Assembly: GCF_017939745.1 (NCBI RefSeq)
Contig: NZ_JAGKQQ010000001.1
Span: 2,728,001 to 2,792,000 of the forward strand
Length of the DNA stretch: 64,000 nt
DNA from: Gemmata palustris
GTDB taxonomy: Bacteria; Planctomycetota; Planctomycetia; Gemmatales; Gemmataceae
Direction: 5' to 3'
Shown: one piece after another, positions 6,839 through 17,290 of the stretch
Layout: the number at the start of each line of letters is the position of its first letter
How positions within the stretch are numbered: position 1 is the stretch's first letter
Notes under the pieces: generated by a model
The model's input: only the letters and a program-made list of their open reading frames with translations
Databases searched by the model: none
Told to the model about the DNA's origin: nothing
Made by a program: the position numbers and the translations under genes

Positions 6839-9800
6839 TCACGCCTTCTGCACCACCTTCACCACGTTGTCCTCGGTCGAGGTCAACGTGCCTTCAGCGG
6901 AGAGAGCGTTGATCGCCTGCGCCACGCGCTCGCGGATCTTCGGGCCGACGCGCTTGAAACCGAGCCGCTTCGAGACCGCGGAGATCAAGTCTTCTGCCGG
7001 CATCGTTCCGAACTCCGTCAGCGACGCGATCAGGGTTGCGTGCAGTACACTATCGCTGACCTTCTCGATGGAATCGAAATCCAGCTCGACTTCCTTCACC
7101 GGCTTGAGTTTCACGGCCGCGACCACTTCCGGCTCGGGCGCAGGTGCAACTTTCGCGGGCGGTTTGCGGGCCGCTTCGAGCGCCGCGAGCACGCGATTGA
7201 CCTGACTGTTGCGGTCGCGGACCCAATCCGTGGACCACACCCGAACGAGGCGCCAGCCCAGTCCTTCGAGCACCGCTTGGCGAAGCCGGTCGCGGTCGCG
7301 TGCAGTTGCGGCCGAGTGATAGGTCGCGCCGTCACACTCGACACCGAGCAGGTATTTCCCTCCACCCGCATCAGTAATCGCGAGGTCGATGAGGTACCCG
7401 CCGCAACCGACTTGCCGGTGAATCGTGAGTCCGCGTCGCGCCAACTCGTCGCCGACCTCTTGCTCGAAAGGGCTATCCGCCCCGCGCCGACCGGCCTCTG
7501 TAACCACCGCTGCGAGAGCGGCAGGGCCGCGTTCGGCGAAGTCGAGAAACGCCTTGAGCAGCTTCGCGCCTTCGGCTTCGGTGCGCGTCAAATCGACATC
7601 GTTCGAGGTCATGCTCGAAATGACGCACATCGCCCGACGTGCCCGCGTGACCGCGACATTGAGGCGCCGTTCGCCGCCTTGTCGGTTCAGCGGTCCGAAC
7701 CGCATCGCGACCTTACCCGCATCGTCCGGCCCGTAGCCGATGCTCAGCACCACCACGTCGCGCTCGTCGCCCTGCACGTTTTCCAGGTTCTTCACGAAGA
7801 ACGGGTCCGGGCGATCCGCCGCGAAAAAGTCTTCGGCCCCTTTGTTCGCGCGGCGCAGCACTTCGAGTTCGTCAAGGATGCGGTCCTGTTGGCGCTGACT
7901 GAACGCGATCACGCCCAAACTCTGGTCCGGAGTTTGTCGCGCGTGCTCCATCACGAGCGCGGCCACGCGCTTCGCCTCGATCGGGTTCACGCCGTCCTTG
8001 AAGCGGCCCTCGGGCACCTTCACAAACCGCACTGCGGGGCTCGTGGCGTCGTCCGCGCTCGGGAACGTGATGAGCGAGCTGCTGTAAAAGAACTTGTTCG
8101 AGAACGCGATGAGCGCCTCGCGCCGGCTGCGGTAGTGCCAGCGCAGGCGCTTCCGGCAAATCCCCAGCGAGAGGCACACGTCCAGCAAGCTCTCGAAGCC
8201 CCCGGTGCCGCCCTCGTCGGGGTGCGGTTCGTCGCTGGTATCTTCACCGCTGCGGGCGAAGAAATCCGTCGGCGGGAGTTGCTTCGGGTCGCCACCCACC
8301 ACGAGTTGTTTCCCGCGGTAGATCGCGCACACTGCGTCGTGCGGACGCACCTGCGAGGCTTCGTCGAAGATCACCAGATCGAACGCGAACTCCGGGTTAT
8401 CGAGGTAGGTGCTGACCGCGAGCGGGCTCATCATGAGGCACGGCTTGATGCGCGGGAGCAGTGTGGGCATCTTCGCGAACAGGTGGCGCAACGGGAGGTG
8501 TCGGCGCTTCTTGTTCACCTCGCGCAACAAAATGCCGAGTTCGGATGCGTCTGGCGCGCCGTCACGCACACGCGGGCGATTCGGCTTTCCGAGCAACTGC
8601 GCCCGAACACGATCCCCGGCCGTTCGCACAGAGAGCCGGTCCAGTTCCGCAAAGCGACTTACGAGGCGTTCTTGTTTGTCCGTCGTGAATTCGCCGAGTA
8701 GCGGCGCTTGCTGGTGGATGGCATCGAGCCACAAGCGGAAGAAGCGCGAGCGGAACGCCTCGGCCGCGTGTTCTACGCCGAATTCGCCTGCGCGTACTTC
8801 TTCCAAAACGCCGCCCAAACCCGCAGCTCCGGCGTCGCGCTCGACATGCACGAATCGCACCCACTCGAACACGCGGTCGGCATCCGCAGCGCGATCGCTG
8901 GCCCACAGTGTGAGTTCCGCGAGCGGAAGATTGTTCAGGACGACATTGGTCGAGACGGTGGCGGCCGGGTCGAAAACGGCGCGCGTGACGTGTTCCCACG
9001 AAGTCGCGAACGTGCCGCCGCGCGCGGTTTCGTTCTGCTGAATCGCGCTCTTCAGTCGGTCGCGTGCCGACGGCTCGGTGAGCACACCCCGAAGTTGCGG
9101 CAAGACGGGGCGCTTCCACCGGTCGAGCAGGCGCAACAGTTCCTCGCCGAGTGCCGCACGTTCCGCGCGCACGCGGTCATCGGTCGGTTGACCCTCTTCG
9201 AGTTGCTTGAGGCGAGCGGCAACAGTTGCGAGCCGTGCTGCGGAAGTCGCCGCGTCGCGAATGCGCCCGCCGGGAATGTCCTGTCCTTGCGCGAGCAGGT
9301 TCACGAGCGCCTGCAACCCACTCGCTTCGCGTTCGAGCGCGGTCACTTCGGTCATCAGCCACGCTCGAACTTCGGCCGGAGTCTTCGCATCGAGTGGCAG
9401 CGCAGCAAAGTCACTGGCAACGACCGCGAGCCGATCACGAAATGCACGCTCGGCCGCCTCCAGAGCTGTTGCGCTGTCACCGAGCGCCTTTCGGTCGCGC
9501 TTCGATAGTGCCTCGTGCTTCACGCCCCGCTCTTCGAGCGTTTCCACCGCACGAAGAGCGTCGAGTGTTCCGGTCCAGTCCGGCCCGCCGGTCGTGTCCT
9601 TCATCAACTCGTTGCCATACGCGCCCACCACCTGGCGCGCGGCTTCGGCCTGTTGGTGATACCCCGCAAGCGCGGCGACATCGGCCCGGAGCGGCGTACC
9701 CGTGCGCGGCGAACTCGCGTACCAAGCAGAGACTTGCTTGCTCAGCCCCCACCAGCGCGGGAACAGGCGCGACCAGAACGACCGCCCGGCCTGGACCGCG

Positions 9801-12085
9801 TCGCGTGCGATCGCCGATGATTCCGGCACGAACGCGACCGGCGAGAACCGCGTGATGAGTTCCGTTCGTACCGCTTGCGCAGCGCGGTCCTGCTCATCAG
9901 CACGCGACACTACCGCGAGCAGTTCTTTTCGCCTCCCCGCAGTTCCCCAGGCACGCGGTCCGGCACCGACCCGGCCGACCACATCCCCCAAATGCACGCA
10001 CTCCGCGAGCTTCGCCAGTTCTGGGACGCGCGACACCCCGAGCGCCTGCGTTGCGGCCAGCGCAGCACGATCCAGTTCCGTCGCGAGCGTTTCGAGTTGC
10101 CTCACCGCGTTCGCGGTTTGTTGCACGGCGACGAGCCGGTTGCGGAGTGTGAGCGCAGCCCCCGCGGTGAGGCGCTCGCGATCAGCGTTCACTGCGCCGA
10201 GTGAATCAATCTGCGAAGCAGCCTGCTTCACGGCAGCGATGTCGAACTCGGGCAATTTTGCACTAAGTTCACGCGACTCCAGCACCGCCTGATGCAGTTC
10301 GACCGCGCGCTGGGCCGCGGCACGCGGATCGGTGGCAAACCACTCCGGCGGGAAGAACGACAGCGGGAGCAGCGACCGCGCGTCGGCGACGGCCGCATCC
10401 CATTCGAGTACGGAGGGCGGTTCCGGGCCAACGCCGGCTTCCGCGAGAGTCGCAACCGCTTTCTCGGCCGCGGGAATCGCCCCTGCGAGCCGGCTCAGGT
10501 GAAATCGTGCATCGTCCTTCGCTTCTTGCGAAAACGTGACGAGTTTGCACCCGCGCCACGGGTGCCCGGTGGGGTTCGCCACCACCGGCGCGCAGTCGCC
10601 GAGGCGCGTGAGAACATCGTCGCACGTTTGGAGATAAGCCGCGTCCTTACTCAGCACATCGAGAACCGCAATGCGCGAGCGTGCAGGTAGGCTCCCGAGT
10701 TTTGCGACTTCACCGTGTACGCGGAACACCGACATCCCGAGCGGGGCGCGAACCGCGTGTAGTTCCGCAACGAAATCGTTCAACTTGCGGCGGCTCTCGG
10801 CGAGTTGCGAGAGTTGCGAATCGACGTCCGGCGCGCCGACCGGCTTCAGTTCGAGGCAGCGCCCCAACTCGGTCACGACTTCGCGCTTGTTGGCCTTGTG
10901 GCTGTGAAGCTCCAAGCAGAAATCGCCCAGCCCGCAGCGGTCTAGCCTGCGCTTCACCACTTCGAGCGCGGCCGTCTTCTCGCTCACGAACAGCACCGTT
11001 TTGCCGGACTGGAGCGCCTCCGCGATCATGTTGGAAATGGTCTGACTCTTACCTGTACCGGGCGGGCCGTCCATCACGAGGTGCGCGCCGCGTTTGACTG
11101 CTTCGATGGCCTCGTGTTGGCTGCTGTCCGCATCAAGAATGTGAACGGCTGCGATCGGCGCAACCACCGCGTCGAGTTGCTCCGCGGTCGGCAAATCGCC
11201 CGGCGGCTGGAGCGCCACCGCGCCATCACCCGCGACCGCGCGACACACCGGGTGCGATTTGACCTTCTCCGCGTTGCGGCCCAAGTCCTCCCACATCGCG
11301 AGCTTCTGGAAGTTGAACACCCCCAGCGCCGCTTCCGGGACCACGCCCCACCGGGGAATGTCCTTCACGCGGTCCGCGACGAGCGCGAAATACTTCGCCG
11401 CGCACTCCGGGTCTTCCGGGTCGAGGGTGTACTCGTTCGCAGCGGGTAGCTTGATGCGGAACTGCGTTTGGAGCAGTTCGGCGAGACAGTGGTTCGGCAG
11501 AATATCGTCTTCTTCCGCGACGAGTGTGAACGCCGACTCCACCGTTTCACGTTCGAGCTTCACCGGCACGAGCAGCAGCGGCGAGCGGACCTCTTCCTCC
11601 GAATCGGCACTCTCGTACCACCGGAGGAAGCCGAACGCCGCGAACAGCGTGGTGACGCCGTGATCGGTTTGCGCTTCGTCCGACAGGCGCTTGAGCCGGA
11701 TCAGGCGCGCGGCGAGTTGCCGGTCGGTCTGATCCGTGAGCAGGTGCGCCGGCTTGAGGCGGTTCGAGCGCAAGCACTGTTCGAGCAAATCCCGGCGAAC
11801 CGCGTCCTCGTTCGTTTGCGTCGTTCCGGTCGTGGGATCGAAATCGGACGAGAGCATCTCCGCATCGAGCACATCTTGCGGCAGCCCGAGGATGTCGCGC
11901 TTCCACGCGAACGTGAGCCGGTGACCGTCCTGAACGAGTTGGCGCCAAAAATCGGGCGCAAGCGGGTGCATCAGCGACACGCCGCCGATGCGCCCGGCCA
12001 CGAACTTGATGAGCCGGTTCCGCTTCGTGGTGTCGAGCAGGGCCTTGCGCCACTCGGCGAGTCGCGCGTCGAGATCAGTAGGCAT
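6839..12085 (-). CDS. Giant DUF4011-helicase-nuclease-DUF3320 protein
   Basis: The 1748-aa protein combines several domains. An N-terminal DUF4011-like region covers about residues 1-330. An SF1 (AAA_11/AAA_12) helicase follows, with Walker A GPPGTGKSQT near residue 338, Walker B VIFDEASQV near 1238, and C-terminal motifs NVQGDERDVVVLSIGYG and LNVAVTRARRAM. A PD-(D/E)XK/Vsr-type nuclease lies at about 1530-1635 (LIDLAI, GVECDGATYH, GWRLVRVWSTDW), and a DUF3320-like module occupies the last 70 residues. The middle, about 400-1150, looks largely helical and is unassigned. Proteins of DUF4011-helicase-Vsr layout have been reported as antiviral defence genes (Hhe type). A defence role here is inferred from architecture alone; no other defence gene is adjacent. 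Confidence 0.9.
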   Translation of the reverse strand: MPTDLDARLAEWRKALLDTTKRNRLIKFVAGRIGGVSLMHPLAPDFWRQLVQDGHRLTFAWKRDILGLPQDVLDAEMLSSDFDPTTGTTQTNEDAVRRDLLEQCLRSNRLKPAHLLTDQTDRQLAARLIRLKRLSDEAQTDHGVTTLFAAFGFLRWYESADSEEEVRSPLLLVPVKLERETVESAFTLVAEEDDILPNHCLAELLQTQFRIKLPAANEYTLDPEDPECAAKYFALVADRVKDIPRWGVVPEAALGVFNFQKLAMWEDLGRNAEKVKSHPVCRAVAGDGAVALQPPGDLPTAEQLDAVVAPIAAVHILDADSSQHEAIEAVKRGAHLVMDGPPGTGKSQTISNMIAEALQSGKTVLFVSEKTAALEVVKRRLDRCGLGDFCLELHSHKANKREVVTELGRCLELKPVGAPDVDSQLSQLAESRRKLNDFVAELHAVRAPLGMSVFRVHGEVAKLGSLPARSRIAVLDVLSKDAAYLQTCDDVLTRLGDCAPVVANPTGHPWRGCKLVTFSQEAKDDARFHLSRLAGAIPAAEKAVATLAEAGVGPEPPSVLEWDAAVADARSLLPLSFFPPEWFATDPRAAAQRAVELHQAVLESRELSAKLPEFDIAAVKQAASQIDSLGAVNADRERLTAGAALTLRNRLVAVQQTANAVRQLETLATELDRAALAATQALGVSRVPELAKLAECVHLGDVVGRVGAGPRAWGTAGRRKELLAVVSRADEQDRAAQAVRTELITRFSPVAFVPESSAIARDAVQAGRSFWSRLFPRWWGLSKQVSAWYASSPRTGTPLRADVAALAGYHQQAEAARQVVGAYGNELMKDTTGGPDWTGTLDALRAVETLEERGVKHEALSKRDRKALGDSATALEAAERAFRDRLAVVASDFAALPLDAKTPAEVRAWLMTEVTALEREASGLQALVNLLAQGQDIPGGRIRDAATSAARLATVAARLKQLEEGQPTDDRVRAERAALGEELLRLLDRWKRPVLPQLRGVLTEPSARDRLKSAIQQNETARGGTFATSWEHVTRAVFDPAATVSTNVVLNNLPLAELTLWASDRAADADRVFEWVRFVHVERDAGAAGLGGVLEEVRAGEFGVEHAAEAFRSRFFRLWLDAIHQQAPLLGEFTTDKQERLVSRFAELDRLSVRTAGDRVRAQLLGKPNRPRVRDGAPDASELGILLREVNKKRRHLPLRHLFAKMPTLLPRIKPCLMMSPLAVSTYLDNPEFAFDLVIFDEASQVRPHDAVCAIYRGKQLVVGGDPKQLPPTDFFARSGEDTSDEPHPDEGGTGGFESLLDVCLSLGICRKRLRWHYRSRREALIAFSNKFFYSSSLITFPSADDATSPAVRFVKVPEGRFKDGVNPIEAKRVAALVMEHARQTPDQSLGVIAFSQRQQDRILDELEVLRRANKGAEDFFAADRPDPFFVKNLENVQGDERDVVVLSIGYGPDDAGKVAMRFGPLNRQGGERRLNVAVTRARRAMCVISSMTSNDVDLTRTEAEGAKLLKAFLDFAERGPAALAAVVTEAGRRGADSPFEQEVGDELARRGLTIHRQVGCGGYLIDLAITDAGGGKYLLGVECDGATYHSAATARDRDRLRQAVLEGLGWRLVRVWSTDWVRDRNSQVNRVLAALEAARKPPAKVAPAPEPEVVAAVKLKPVKEVELDFDSIEKVSDSVLHATLIASLTEFGTMPAEDLISAVSKRLGFKRVGPKIRERVAQAINALSAEGTLTSTEDNVVKVVQKA

Positions 12086-12697: not shown

Positions 12698-14608
12698 ATG
12701 CGATCACTGTTAGCGCTCGCCTCTCTCGCGATCTGCGTTGGCCCGAGTTCGGCGCAGCAGCCGGATAAGAAAACGGACTTCGCACCCGACGTCGTTCCGA
12801 TCCTCAAAGCGAGGTGCGCGAAGTGCCACACGAACGGCACCTATAAGGGCGGCGTGTCGTTCGATACGCGCGAAGAGTTGCTGAAATCGAAAGCTGCAGT
12901 GCCCGGGAAATCGACCGCGAGCGAGATCATCAAGCTCGTCACGTCCACCGATAAAGACACGCGGATGCCCCCGCAGGGCGATCCCCTGAGCGCGAAGGAG
13001 ATCGCGGCGCTCGCGAAGTGGATCGATGACGGTCTGCCGTGGGAGCCGGGGTTCAGCTTCAAGCCCGCAACCTATGTCGCGCCACTCAAACCGCGGAAGG
13101 TCGCGCTCCCGCCCACGATGCCGGGCCGCGAGCACCCGATCGACCGCATCATCGATTCTTACTTCGCCAAGAACAAAATCATTGCCCCGGAACCGCTCGA
13201 TGATGCGGCCTTCGCCCGGCGCGCATACCTCGACCTGATCGGGTTGCCGCCCGCGGCCGGGGAACTGGAAGCATTCGTCGCGAACACGAGCGCCAATAAG
13301 CGCATCGAGTTGGTGAACAAGCTGCTCGCGGAAGATCGTTCCTACACCGACCACTGGCTCGGGTTCTGGAACGACGCGCTCCGCAACGAATACCGCGGAA
13401 CCGGGTACATCGACGGCGGGCGCAAGCAGATCACCGCGTGGCTGTACAAATCACTTTTAGAGAACAAGCCTTACGACAAATTCGCGCGCGAGCTGATTAG
13501 CCCGAACGCGAGTTCCGAGGGCTTCGTCAAGGGCATCAAGTGGCGCGGCGAGGTGAACGCCAGCCAAATTGTGGAGCTTCAGTTTTCCCAGAACGTCGGG
13601 CAGGTGTTCTTCGGCGCGAACCTCAAGTGTGCATCGTGCCACGACAGCTTCATCGACTCGTGGAAACTCGACGACGCCTACGGGTTGGCCGCTGTGATTG
13701 CGGACAAGCCGCTCACGGTCCACCGGTGCGACAAGCCGATCGGCCGGACCGCGAGCGCGAAGTTCCTGTTCCCGGAACTCGGCTCCATCGACGCGACCGC
13801 CCCCAAAGCCAAGCGGCTCGAACAACTCGCCGCCCTGGTCACGCACCCGGACAACGGGCGGTTCACCCGCACGATGGCGAATAGAATTTGGCACCGGCTG
13901 ATGGGGCACGGGATCGTTCACCCGGTCGACGTGATGGGCAACAAACCGTGGAGCGAAGACCTCCTCGATTACCTCGCGGTCTACTTCGCGGAGAACGGCT
14001 ACGACCTCAAAAAGCTGATGGCGCACATCGCGACCTCGCGGACTTACCAGGCGAAGGCAGTGCCGCTCGAAAAGGAGATCATCGGCGACGGTTTCGTGTT
14101 CCGCGGACCCGAACTGAAGCGCCTCAGCGCGGAGCAGTTCACCGACGCGATCTGGATGCTGACCGATACGGCGCCCGCGAAGCAGTCGGCCGCGTTCCCG
14201 GGCGCGCTGCCACCCTTCCCGGCCGGCGTGCCAAAGGAGCGGCAATTCGTCCGCACCACGCTGGTAGACTGCGACCCACTCATGCGCTCACTCGGTCGCC
14301 CCAACCGCGAGCAAGTGGTCACAACGCGCCCGGACCAGTTGTCTACGCTCCAGGCACTCGACCTCGCGAACGGTCAGATCCTCACGACGACACTCGAACG
14401 CGGCGCGACCAACATCCTGAACGCGAACGCGAAACTGTCGCCCAACGAACTCGCGGATTGGGTCTTCCTGGGAGCACTTTCGCGCAAGCCGACCGCGAAC
14501 GAGCGTGCCGCGGCGAAATCGCTCCTGGGCGCGAAACTGACCACCGAGAGCGTGGCCGATCTACTGTGGGCCGTCGTCATGCTGCCCGAGTTTCAATTAG
14601 TAAGGTGA
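12698..14608 (+). CDS. PSCyt1/DUF1549/DUF1553 planctomycete cytochrome-like protein
   Basis: This 636-aa exported protein starts with a signal peptide (cleavage near SSAQQ, residue 20). A c-type heme motif CAKCH lies at residues 40-44 in a PSCyt1-like domain, then comes the DUF1549 region, which includes GANLKCASCHDS, and a DUF1553-type C-terminus ending LLWAVVMLPEFQLVR. The family is greatly expanded in planctomycetes and is almost always paired with a DUF1501 gene; a role in periplasmic carbohydrate or sulfated polymer use has been proposed but is not established. Here the DUF1501 partner is about 1.2 kb downstream, after two unrelated genes. Confidence 0.92.
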   Translation: MRSLLALASLAICVGPSSAQQPDKKTDFAPDVVPILKARCAKCHTNGTYKGGVSFDTREELLKSKAAVPGKSTASEIIKLVTSTDKDTRMPPQGDPLSAKEIAALAKWIDDGLPWEPGFSFKPATYVAPLKPRKVALPPTMPGREHPIDRIIDSYFAKNKIIAPEPLDDAAFARRAYLDLIGLPPAAGELEAFVANTSANKRIELVNKLLAEDRSYTDHWLGFWNDALRNEYRGTGYIDGGRKQITAWLYKSLLENKPYDKFARELISPNASSEGFVKGIKWRGEVNASQIVELQFSQNVGQVFFGANLKCASCHDSFIDSWKLDDAYGLAAVIADKPLTVHRCDKPIGRTASAKFLFPELGSIDATAPKAKRLEQLAALVTHPDNGRFTRTMANRIWHRLMGHGIVHPVDVMGNKPWSEDLLDYLAVYFAENGYDLKKLMAHIATSRTYQAKAVPLEKEIIGDGFVFRGPELKRLSAEQFTDAIWMLTDTAPAKQSAAFPGALPPFPAGVPKERQFVRTTLVDCDPLMRSLGRPNREQVVTTRPDQLSTLQALDLANGQILTTTLERGATNILNANAKLSPNELADWVFLGALSRKPTANERAAAKSLLGAKLTTESVADLLWAVVMLPEFQLVR

Positions 14609-14678: not shown

Positions 14679-15380
14679 ATGAGCAAAGAAGGGTTCTTCT
14701 CCGCTGTTCGCCAGGCGTGCCGACTCGCCGGGCCGACGCTCGTCACGGACAGCGAAAAGCTCGACGCTGGCGCGATCGAGTTGCAGTTGCGCGGAACCGA
14801 TTTGTGGTTAACGTCACGGGTGGTAGAAGGGTACGACCCCGAGGACTACCGTGACCTCCCGACCGCCGCGCAGGAGGCTCTCGCAAACGCCATCGAAGGG
14901 TTCCGGCGCGTCGCCAGTGCGGTGCCGCCCGATGCGCCTGCGACGCGCGATCAACGAGACGAAGCATGGGGGCACTTCAGCCGGATCCTTCGGTTCGTTC
15001 GGGAATACGTCACCGCGGAGTGGCTCGGTGCGGTCGAGTTCCTGTTCCAGCAAGCGGAATCGCTCGCCGTCAAGCGGGAGTGGGGCACTAAACGCTTTCC
15101 GAAAACACTCGCGGACTCATTCCTCGGTGCATACGAGGTGTCCCAACTGCTCATCCACCGCCCGGACGCACGGTTCATGTTGGACCCGGTCGCGCGGTAC
15201 GCGCCGGGAACCACCGGGCTGGTCGATTTGTACGTCATGCCGTCACTGGGCGGAACGGTACTGACCCGGGCGAACGGTATCTGGCGGATTCACCCGCCAC
15301 AGCCCGGCCAGCCCTTACAACCGTGGTCCGAGGCCGCGTTCCTCTCCGCGCTCGACGGGCTGGCGAGGGCCGCGGCGTGA
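14679..15380 (+). CDS. Unrecognised 233-aa partner of the HEPN protein
   Basis: No family is recognised. The ATG at 14679 is preceded by GGGAG at suitable spacing. The protein is soluble and predicted mixed alpha/beta, without signal or membrane segments; about residues 85-160 look helical. The last bases overlap the GTG start of the next gene (GTGA overlap at 15377-15380), so the two are translationally coupled and probably act together. The position, between a DUF1549 and a DUF1501 gene that are usually neighbours, suggests later insertion of the pair. It could be a substrate-recognition or antitoxin-like partner, but nothing in the sequence shows this. Confidence 0.7.
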   Translation: MSKEGFFSAVRQACRLAGPTLVTDSEKLDAGAIELQLRGTDLWLTSRVVEGYDPEDYRDLPTAAQEALANAIEGFRRVASAVPPDAPATRDQRDEAWGHFSRILRFVREYVTAEWLGAVEFLFQQAESLAVKREWGTKRFPKTLADSFLGAYEVSQLLIHRPDARFMLDPVARYAPGTTGLVDLYVMPSLGGTVLTRANGIWRIHPPQPGQPLQPWSEAAFLSALDGLARAAA

Positions 15381-15826
15381 AGCGGCAAGAGCGGATCGAG
15401 CGCGTTCGGGCGATCGAACGTGAATTCTGGGCCGCCGCATTTGCAGCCAACCTCCTTGACGAGGCCCTCCAGAAAGACTCGGGGTTGCTCGCCGCGGAAG
15501 CGTTCAAAGTGCCGGACGTGCGCAACTGGAAAAAGAACCTGGAGGGCACGTACCTGATCCGAATGTTCGCGGAATTCGAGGCCACACTCCGAGACGTGTG
15601 GGCGCGGTTCTTCAAGCGCGATACGCACCCGCGAATGGTCGACCTGATCGACGCCATTGCGGGGTACCAGTTCGTACCAGATGACGTGATCGACGGGGCA
15701 CACGCGGTCCGGCGCTACCGGAACAGTTTGGTTCACGAAGGTGGCGAAGAGGCGGCCACGCTCCCTTTCGGCCACGCCCGGAGCTTCCTTGGTTCCTACC
15801 TCAGTCGGCTCCCGACCGATTGGTGA
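15377..15826 (+). CDS. Small HEPN-like protein
   Basis: This 149-aa all-helical protein carries RNSLVH at residues 115-120, matching the R-x4-H signature of HEPN-domain RNases, within the context AVRRYRNSLVHEGG. In the HEPN superfamily (RiboL-PSP, MAE_28990 and related groups) Arg and His of this motif are catalytic for RNA cleavage, but many HEPN proteins are non-enzymatic. The GTG start at 15377 overlaps the stop of the previous gene, and the upstream in-frame extension to 15323 is antisense-like and unlikely. It ends 18 bp before the DUF1501 gene. The HEPN assignment rests on one motif plus helix pattern. Confidence 0.65.
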   Translation: MKRQERIERVRAIEREFWAAAFAANLLDEALQKDSGLLAAEAFKVPDVRNWKKNLEGTYLIRMFAEFEATLRDVWARFFKRDTHPRMVDLIDAIAGYQFVPDDVIDGAHAVRRYRNSLVHEGGEEAATLPFGHARSFLGSYLSRLPTDW

Positions 15827-15844: not shown

Positions 15845-17290
15845 ATGCAATCCAACGATACCCGCGAACTCTCCCGACGCGAATACCTGCGAGCCATGAC
15901 CGCGGCCGGCCTCGCGACCATCGCGGGCGGCGAACCGCGTCTGCGTGCATCGGACCCGGTCGCGCACCCCAAGCCCACCGCCGATACGTGCATTCTCCTC
16001 TGGATGGCCGGCGGAATGGGGGCGCCGGACACGTTCGATCCGAAGCGCTACACCAAGTTCGAGGTCGGCGTCCCGGTCGACAAGATCCTGTCCACGTTCC
16101 CGGCCATTGACACGGTCGTGGACAACATTAAGTTCACCGAGGGCTTGGAAAACATCGCGAAGGTGATCGACCGCGGGACACTCATCCGATCGCACGTCGT
16201 CGCGGATCTCGGCAACATTCTGCACTCGCGTCACCAGTACCACTGGCATACGGGATACGTCCCGCCGCAAACGGTCGCGTGCCCGCACATCGGGGCGTGG
16301 ATGGCGCGCGTGCTCGGCCCGCGGAACCCCGCCATTCCGCCGTTCATCAACATCGGACAGAAACTCGAAGGCCACGGCGAATCGGAAGAACTCAAAGCGT
16401 TCACCACGGGCGGGTTCTTCGGCACCGAGTTCGGGCCGTTCAACCTGCCCTTCCCCGACGACGCCGTGAACGCGGTCCGGCCGCCCAAGGGCATGACGCC
16501 CGAACGCTTCTCCGCGCGCCACGAGAAATTCAAGGAACTGCTGAAGGCTTCCCCCGTGGGCGAGATGGCGAGCGACCACCACCACGAGTCGATGCTCAAG
16601 TCCATTGAGAACGCGCACCGGTTGCTCACGAGCAAGGAACGCGACGCCTTCGACATTACCAAAGAACCGAAAGCGAGTTACGACAAGTACAACACCGGGC
16701 GGTTCGGGTTGGGGTGCCTGCTCGCCCGGCGCCTGGCAGAGTCCGGGGCGCGATTCATCGAGGTGACGACCGAGTACGTGCCGTTCCTCCACTGGGACAC
16801 GCACGAGAACGGCCACACTACGTACACCCGCATGAAGAAGGAAATCGACCGCCCCATCGCCCAACTGATCCTCGACCTGGAGCAGCGCGGGATGCTCGAC
16901 CGCACGCTCGTCGTCCTGGCGAGCGAGTTCAGCAGAGACATGATGATCGAGGGCGTACCGGGCAGCACGGCGAAGGACCAGTCCCTCGCGAAAGCCGAAA
17001 AGCTCGGCGAACTGAAACACTACGGGCTGCACCGGCACTTCACCGGCTCCGGGTCGGTGCTGATGTTCGGCGGCGGAATCAAAAAGGGCGCTCTGTACGG
17101 CGAGACGGCAGCAGAACGGCCGCTCATCACCACGAAGAACCCGGTGAGCATTCGCGACCTGCACGCGACCATCTTCCACGCGATGGGGATCTCGCCGAAG
17201 ACCGCGTTCGACGTCGAGAAGCGCCCGTTCTACGCGACTGAAGACGGTAAGGGCAAGCCGGTGATGGACCTGTTCGCGCGCGGGAAGTGA
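15845..17290 (+). CDS. DUF1501 family protein
   Basis: The 481-aa protein belongs to the DUF1501 family, which has an alkaline-phosphatase/sulfatase-like fold and is the standard partner of DUF1549 proteins in planctomycetes. The N-terminus (SRREYLRAMTAAGLATIAGG) looks like a twin-arginine signal, so export is likely. Family features include ILLWMAGGMGAPDTFDPK near residue 52, HSRHQYHWHTGY, HWDTHENGH, and VVLASEFSR near residue 358. No enzyme activity has been demonstrated for the family to my knowledge. The usual upstream partner (12698-14608) is separated from it by the HEPN pair. Confidence 0.92.
   Translation: MQSNDTRELSRREYLRAMTAAGLATIAGGEPRLRASDPVAHPKPTADTCILLWMAGGMGAPDTFDPKRYTKFEVGVPVDKILSTFPAIDTVVDNIKFTEGLENIAKVIDRGTLIRSHVVADLGNILHSRHQYHWHTGYVPPQTVACPHIGAWMARVLGPRNPAIPPFINIGQKLEGHGESEELKAFTTGGFFGTEFGPFNLPFPDDAVNAVRPPKGMTPERFSARHEKFKELLKASPVGEMASDHHHESMLKSIENAHRLLTSKERDAFDITKEPKASYDKYNTGRFGLGCLLARRLAESGARFIEVTTEYVPFLHWDTHENGHTTYTRMKKEIDRPIAQLILDLEQRGMLDRTLVVLASEFSRDMMIEGVPGSTAKDQSLAKAEKLGELKHYGLHRHFTGSGSVLMFGGGIKKGALYGETAAERPLITTKNPVSIRDLHATIFHAMGISPKTAFDVEKRPFYATEDGKGKPVMDLFARGK

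Follow-up and report, generated by a model that had tools for sequence, protein, structure and literature searches.

The window analysed here, the whole 64,000-nt stretch, comprises positions 2,728,001-2,792,000 of the forward strand of contig NZ_JAGKQQ010000001.1 of Gemmata palustris (GCF_017939745.1), whose genome is 9.2 Mb in three contigs. It includes a pair of overlapping genes lying between the genes for two planctomycete proteins:

12698..14608, plus strand: upstream flank, a DUF1549/DUF1553 planctomycete protein (Pfam, above cutoff)
14679..15380, plus strand: gene 1, a two-domain partner of 233 aa, putative antitoxin or regulator (ORF, translation, AlphaFold2 model with pLDDT 94.3)
14679..15011, plus strand: N-terminal helical domain of gene 1 (N-domain), about residues 1-111 (profile search of 95 genomes, downstream genes, model helices)
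15003..15377, plus strand: C-terminal domain of gene 1 (C-domain), about residues 109-233, the part present upstream of gene 2 homologues (homologous loci, model)
15377..15380, plus strand: GTGA, the 4-nt overlap of the gene 1 stop with the gene 2 start (sequence, translations)
15377..15826, plus strand: gene 2, a HEPN-fold protein of 149 aa with a GTG start, putative RNase toxin (translation, predicted structure, fold searches)
15578..15592, plus strand: E68-x3-R72 of gene 2 (E68ATLR72), which fits the HEPN Ex3[KR] motif (sequence; motif as in the available text of PMC3710099)
15719..15736, plus strand: R115-N-S-L-V-H120 of gene 2 (RNSLVH, codons 115-120), the HEPN Rx4H active-site motif (sequence, homologue alignment)
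15845..17290, plus strand: downstream flank, a DUF1501 protein (Pfam, above cutoff)

The original prediction had placed two overlapping genes, for a 233-aa protein and a 149-aa protein with RNSLVH, at 14679-15826 between DUF1549 and DUF1501; the reading frames, the GTGA overlap and the motif are as claimed, and Pfam identifies both flanks. A scan of the pair region found neither promoters nor terminators. The repeats are short, no target-site duplication was recognised, and there is no shift of GC content at the insert, which resembles its surroundings. On the opposite strand, 2.6 kb from the pair, lies a candidate defence gene (6839-12085, minus strand) for a 1748-aa protein that matches the PADLOC candidate PDC-S37 with 1299.5 bits and Hhe with 666.3 bits.

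Gene 2 is, judging by its predicted structure, a HEPN-superfamily protein. Its AlphaFold2 model (24 sequences, pLDDT 92.7, pTM 0.86) is composed of helices throughout. HEPN toxins rank first in Foldseek with a probability of 0.99, at a best E-value of 0.27 that is not significant. The top matches in VIA-align are HEPN-MNT toxins, namely 5yep (Z 11.7, rmsd 3.6, 127 aligned), 6m6u (Z 11.6, rmsd 3.5, 124 aligned) and 7ae2 (Z 10.9, rmsd 4.4, 129 aligned), whose chains share 9-10% identity with gene 2. Ranks 1-19 hold 15 HEPN or HepT entries, recognised by title or known complex, along with 1wwp, 3mfn and 1ufb, which carry no such label, and 1ylm, which is a HEPN protein according to the available text of PMC3710099; rank 20 is human SUGP1 (Z 7.4). 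Since unspecific helical bundles can reach a Z of 13 in VIA-align, the motif bears part of the HEPN assignment. The hallmarks of HEPN domains given in the available text of PMC3710099 are Rx4-6H, a polar residue following the arginine and an upstream Ex3[KR]. The RNxxxH form is kept in 24/24 aligned homologues, with R112, R115, N116 and H120 invariant across these sequences, and a looser pattern of the acidic motif is found in 22 of the 24. The 149-aa protein had been called HEPN-like at the outset, with a non-HEPN fold named as the outcome that would count against this; structure prediction gives the HEPN fold. Gene 2 is probably an RNA-cutting toxin-like protein, with RNase activity and toxicity as its presumed properties. 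In Pfam and PADLOC it matches nothing at E<=1, and NCBIfam yields just one stray match (E 0.11). Its homologues match Pfam families weakly: DUF4145 in 4/6 (best E 0.0023), HEPN_Swt1 in 2/6 (best 0.01) and HepT-like in 1/6 (5.8e-4).

The AlphaFold2 model of gene 1, built for the whole protein from 55 sequences, has helices up to residue 81, a long helix at 90-132, six strands and a final helix. The N-domain is helical, and fold searches with it are unspecific. The best fold match of the C-domain, Nqo15 (2fug_7; Z 8.5, rmsd 5.0, 116 aligned), is near the tool's background and was rejected. Foldseek against the PDB and viral models returned nothing at E<=0.001, and sequence searches against solved structures gave no convincing match. 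The 233-aa protein had been described as unrecognised, and so it stays in the family libraries: Pfam and PADLOC name no family for it at E<=1, nor does NCBIfam. The same holds for its relatives, with no Pfam match for six C-domain partners, none above cutoff for seven N-domain proteins and no NCBIfam family for ten relatives, one stray match aside. Pfam recognises no antitoxin or DNA-binding domain in gene 1. An autoregulatory DNA-binding domain is common, if not universal, among type II antitoxins, and many of the small type II antitoxins are not well folded, unlike the predicted gene 1. Among the homologous partners the C-domain occurs alone (about 140-170 aa), with the helical N-domain or with a different extension of ~85 aa; partner ORFs of up to 502 aa probably have over-long 5' ends. 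The ~85-aa N-terminal extension, a third architecture that often contains 'FTFVPKG' or something similar, is seen in the partners at L026, L028, L033, L035, L037, L042, L043 and L008.

Gene 2 alone as the query gave no match in a first scan of genome contigs. A profile of gene 2 run over contigs of 84,980 species with one peptide pattern recovered 23 loci, all from Planctomycetota. Its distribution is sparse, with matches in 4/392 genomes of the phylum; a larger profile found 19/95 genomes of the family, with 13, by hand count, reaching E<=1e-30. Removal of duplicates by the last 50 residues and by hand left 34 distinct loci, the window included. In every one (34/34) the gene 1 C-domain is encoded directly upstream on the same strand, mostly with a short overlap, and a HEPN of the gene 2 family without the partner is found in 0/34. 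A survey of this pairing had been proposed in the original prediction, with homologues mostly lacking the partner as the adverse result, and its outcome is the opposite. This constancy of the partner (34/34), like that of RNxxxH (24/24), exceeds chance. Whether the loci are variable was part of the proposed survey, and neighbouring genes do differ: among the matches listed for flanking ORFs of at least 120 aa, none is common to more than 4 of the 34 loci at E<=1e-15, in a comparison where many flanks span just 1.5 kb. Two loci (L021, L029) have common flanks, and several of the shared flank matches are reading frames antisense to the pair. Some genomes carry multiple copies of the pair (G019, G450, G453, G457). 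In its own genome gene 2 is a single copy by protein search, with a distant relative detected by profile. This genome contains a second, diverged HEPN-partner pair (L047, 826-1938; G000:C1, about 5670400-5671530). Searches of plasmids returned neither the window DNA nor a close HEPN homologue (L022), and this homologue was not in phages either; the HEPN profiles have no match in viral contigs, and a plasmid HEPN (see below) has none in phages. The family displays traits of type II toxin-antitoxin systems: adjacent genes, the partner in first position, constant pairing and a patchy, mobile distribution.

Beyond what had been predicted, the pair is, judging from profile similarity, part of a much wider two-gene family that extends over Planctomycetota and to plasmids of Burkholderia and Cupriavidus. 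Through weak matches we reached a further group of HEPN proteins, 155-209 aa long and with upstream partners, which retains RNxxxH in 14/14. Comparison of the window family with this diverged family by hhalign gives a probability of 98.9 (E 1.8e-17) for the partner profiles and of 97.6 (E 2.7e-12) for the HEPN profiles. For an independent check we searched 294 genomes of the phylum with the diverged HEPN profile, which matched 11, G. palustris included. The partner lies upstream in 10/11 diverged loci from other genomes and outside the training sets (E 2.6e-7 to 3.3e-30); at L166, the weakest diverged HEPN match, no partner was detected. Relatives detected by tblastn lie on three plasmids of Burkholderia glumae and one of Cupriavidus pauculus. 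In the two plasmid loci that were read, the HEPN motif is RDxxxH; the gene that overlaps the HEPN gene from upstream carries a "hypothetical" annotation, and profile matches (2.2e-14 and 3.7e-9) identify it as the partner. Both plasmid pairs, L124 (NZ_CP082864.1) and L125 (NZ_CP100303.1), are near SOS mutagenesis genes: imuA in one, and error-prone and Y-family polymerases in the other. The diverged HEPNs show weak matches in Pfam to DUF4145 (4/14, best 2.8e-4), RiboL-PSP (3/14, best 0.004) and HEPN_MAE_28990 (1/14, E 0.03) and similarly weak ones to the PADLOC family RTasHEPN (5/14, best 2.8e-4), while one of 11 diverged partners matches PADLOC ThsB (0.003).

To survey the junction at which the pair lies, 95 Gemmataceae genomes were searched for DUF1501 (E<=1e-100). 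Matches occur in 37 genomes, G. palustris included, at 38 places, 37 of which are in other genomes; loci were read for 29 of these 37. As originally stated, the DUF1549 and DUF1501 genes are normally neighbours: they adjoin without the pair in 27/29 relative loci, though the gap sometimes contains other ORFs, and no DUF1549 gene is in view at the two others, L148 (near a contig end) and L149. Neither gene 1 nor gene 2 is detected by tblastn in any of the 29. The nominal gap measures 85 nt or less in 21/27 loci and 124-867 nt in the other six. In the nearest relatives (G008 and G010), in which DUF1501 is 97% identical, the distance from the stop to the next ATG, read by eye, is 11 nt, as against 1236 nt in the window. 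Given this difference and the absence of the pair from the junction in relatives, insertion between the two genes, on their strand, is the most likely origin of the arrangement in the window. As five of the six long gaps contain other ORFs of at least 60 codons, the junction seems to take small cargo repeatedly, and it may be a place where small cassettes land time and again. These junctions (L131, L133, L142, L144, L145) have gaps of 367-867 nt; by eye, the one at L142 codes for a short antitoxin-like protein along with a second ORF and the one at L144 for a nucleotidyltransferase-like protein.

The copies of the pair are unevenly damaged. The HEPN frame is split in 5/34 loci (L032, L041, L044, L045, L075) and the partner frame in 0/34. 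At L090, an intact partner is followed by ~10 codons resembling the start of the window HEPN and then by unrelated sequence. By length alone (450/850 nt), all 6/6 lesions would fall in the HEPN in ~2% of cases, a figure to be read with L090 having come via the partner search. The split frames are mostly in draft assemblies, and sequencing or assembly errors may account for some of them. The HEPN at L042 is truncated by the contig end, and the G015 partner, whose match extends a few positions beyond a TGA, was read as having a normal stop. A further locus, L086 (G495:C422), has a partner of the window family with no HEPN detected downstream.

The gene 1 protein consists of two domains, and its N-terminal half recurs in a second HEPN-like gene pair, a relationship that had not been part of the original prediction. 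A profile search with this half finds matches in 15/95 genomes of the family. Where the N-domain is not fused to a C-domain, a different gene lies directly downstream or overlaps it in 17/19 distinct copies; 13 of these 17 second-pair genes trained the profile and four are independent (L003, L014, L108 as two fragments, and L116). The two copies without such a gene are L019, at a contig end, and L117, where none was seen. The second-pair protein is 158-180 aa where intact and has the patterns RRAxSxAYYALFHLL and RHxADY. We call it HEPN-like because its match to Pfam HEPN (PF05168) is weak (6/8 tested, E 0.003-0.09, below cutoff) and Rx4H is found in 1/13. Fusion of the N-domain to the C-domain occurs at three loci: the window, L058 and L059. 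These group with L020, and in the partner tree also with L090, in one clade (support 98/97 for the C-domain and 96/97 for the HEPN). L020 and L090 have no N-domain match, hence the N-domain was either gained once and then lost or gained repeatedly. In its own tree, most of which is poorly supported, the window copy pairs with that of L058 (84/91). No homology emerged when the C-domain was compared with the second pair's 'TGDP' domain (hhalign probabilities 0.3 and 1.1), the N-domain with either the second HEPN-like family or the C-domain, or one HEPN family with the other; an N-domain protein was likewise not found in plasmids. The G. palustris genome has two pairs of the N-domain and the second HEPN-like protein, ~2 kb apart (L119 and L122; G000:C1, about 5420500-5423600).

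The pair looks like a toxin-antitoxin or defence module. The reading that we prefer, with a probability of roughly 0.6, is that it is a mobile two-gene toxin-antitoxin-like RNase module in which the partner restrains the HEPN protein and carries an exchangeable N-terminal module. Gene 2, with its predicted fold and motif, would be a metal-independent HEPN endoribonuclease acting via R115, N116 and H120. The helix-sheet-helix C-domain of gene 1 would bind it and keep it inactive without covalent modification. The helical N-domain, as an exchangeable add-on, would most likely sense a trigger or tune release; a sensor role is suggested by analogy only, with Panacea as the model. Were the partner lost or to signal, the HEPN could cleave cellular or phage RNA and so arrest the cell. 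This module is favoured by the HEPN fold, by the conservation of RNxxxH in both families (24/24 and 14/14), by the partner-first order and by the constancy of the partner (34/34 and 10/11). The bias of lesions towards the HEPN, the patchy distribution, multiple copies, varied neighbours, absence from the site in relatives, the plasmid pairs and the shared N-terminal half point the same way. Counted against it are the absence of copies from the phage and viral collections searched, a gene 1 that is predicted to be well folded and has no recognised antitoxin or DNA-binding domain, the HEPN at L166 with no partner detected and the possibility that the split frames are errors; further, the partners at L086 and L090 stand without an intact HEPN and may have uses of their own.

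The same components could instead form a two-component anti-phage effector, with gene 1 serving mainly as an infection sensor or activator, or as an RNA-targeting subunit, rather than as a neutraliser. HEPN domains occur frequently among abortive infection systems, according to the available text of PMC3710099, the partners bear differing N-terminal modules, the PDC-S37 candidate is close by and the diverged HEPNs resemble RTasHEPN weakly. However, neither gene has a PADLOC match at E<=1, and a neutraliser better fits a family in which the HEPN was never seen alone and the partner can persist after its loss; we regard this alternative as unlikely. More improbable still is a domesticated host complex for RNA processing or regulation, unrelated to conflict. 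The chromosomal location, a GC content like that of the surroundings and flanking genes on the same strand would suit such a complex, but few relatives carry the pair, their junctions are empty of it, some genomes have several copies, and there are split HEPN copies and relatives on plasmids.

Membership of the type VII HEPN-MNT systems, in which the HEPN is AMPylated by the antitoxin, is hardly tenable for the pair, even though the gene order agrees and the nearest solved structures are HEPN-MNT toxins. The motifs of that system, as given in the available text of PMC7641770, are GSx10DxD in the partner and Rx4HxY (Class I) in the HEPN. The first is found in 0/29 C-domain partners and 0/11 diverged partners. 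The tyrosine of the second is missing from the window HEPN, which reads RNSLVHEG, and the full pattern occurs in 1/24 homologues and 0/14 diverged HEPNs. With neither GSx10DxD nor this tyrosine, HEPN-MNT chemistry is not to be expected.

Extending the toxin-antitoxin-like module, we tentatively envisage, at somewhat less than even odds, a network of HEPN two-gene modules in Planctomycetota. In it the N-domain, serving as a mobile unit for trigger sensing or regulation, would pass between the antitoxin-like partners of two HEPN-type effectors that have no detectable sequence relation, while the C-domain would determine the effector to be held in check. The RNxxxH pair would then represent a class of its own among HEPN toxin-antitoxin systems, separate from HEPN-MNT and reaching from Planctomycetota to proteobacterial plasmids.

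The original prediction knew of no described system of this composition. None is found among the matches listed in the open PMC literature or in the available text of PMC3710099, PMC7641770, PMC10799925, PMC13092281 and PMC10440598. Four validated defence systems with HEPN domains are reported in PMC13092281. The pair is also unnamed in Pfam, NCBIfam and PADLOC, the three family libraries searched: the Pfam families DUF4145, HEPN_Swt1, HepT-like and HEPN_RiboL-PSP are weakly matched among relatives, whereas for gene 2 none of them scores at E<=1. A dyad of a HEPN protein (MAE_18760) and ParA, proposed in the available text of PMC3710099, is similar in that two genes form the module and the HEPN gene follows a partner other than MNT. 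It differs in that partners of the gene 1 type have no P-loop (the pattern is found in 0/29 C-domain partners and 0/11 diverged partners), and Pfam HEPN_MAE_28990 is matched by just one of the 14 diverged HEPNs; membership was rejected on the P-loop pattern.

A further comparison is with the Panacea (PanAT) antitoxins, whose shared domain we take to be Pfam DUF4065; gene 1 matches nothing in Pfam at E<=1, and membership is not indicated. In the available text of PMC10440598, this domain is shared across partners of different effectors and suggested to be a sensor, and neutralisation by multidomain Panacea antitoxins is ascribed to their other domain. The N-domain of gene 1 is likewise common to partners of different effectors but has no Pfam match and so far links just two HEPN-type pairs.

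The closest likeness in layout and fold is to HEPN-MNT (HepT-MntA, type VII), in which the partner also comes first, an Rx4H protein of HEPN fold is the second gene and the nearest solved folds are found. Against this, the gene 1 partner lacks GSx10DxD and gene 2 lacks the AMPylated tyrosine, and membership was rejected on both motifs. HEPN-MNT, neutralised via AMPylation, is the best-known HEPN toxin-antitoxin module in the cited papers. A broad HEPN family with a constant partner that has no MNT motif would give a second means of restraining a HEPN RNase, and an N-domain common to two HEPN-type pairs offers a direct handle on the triggers of such modules.
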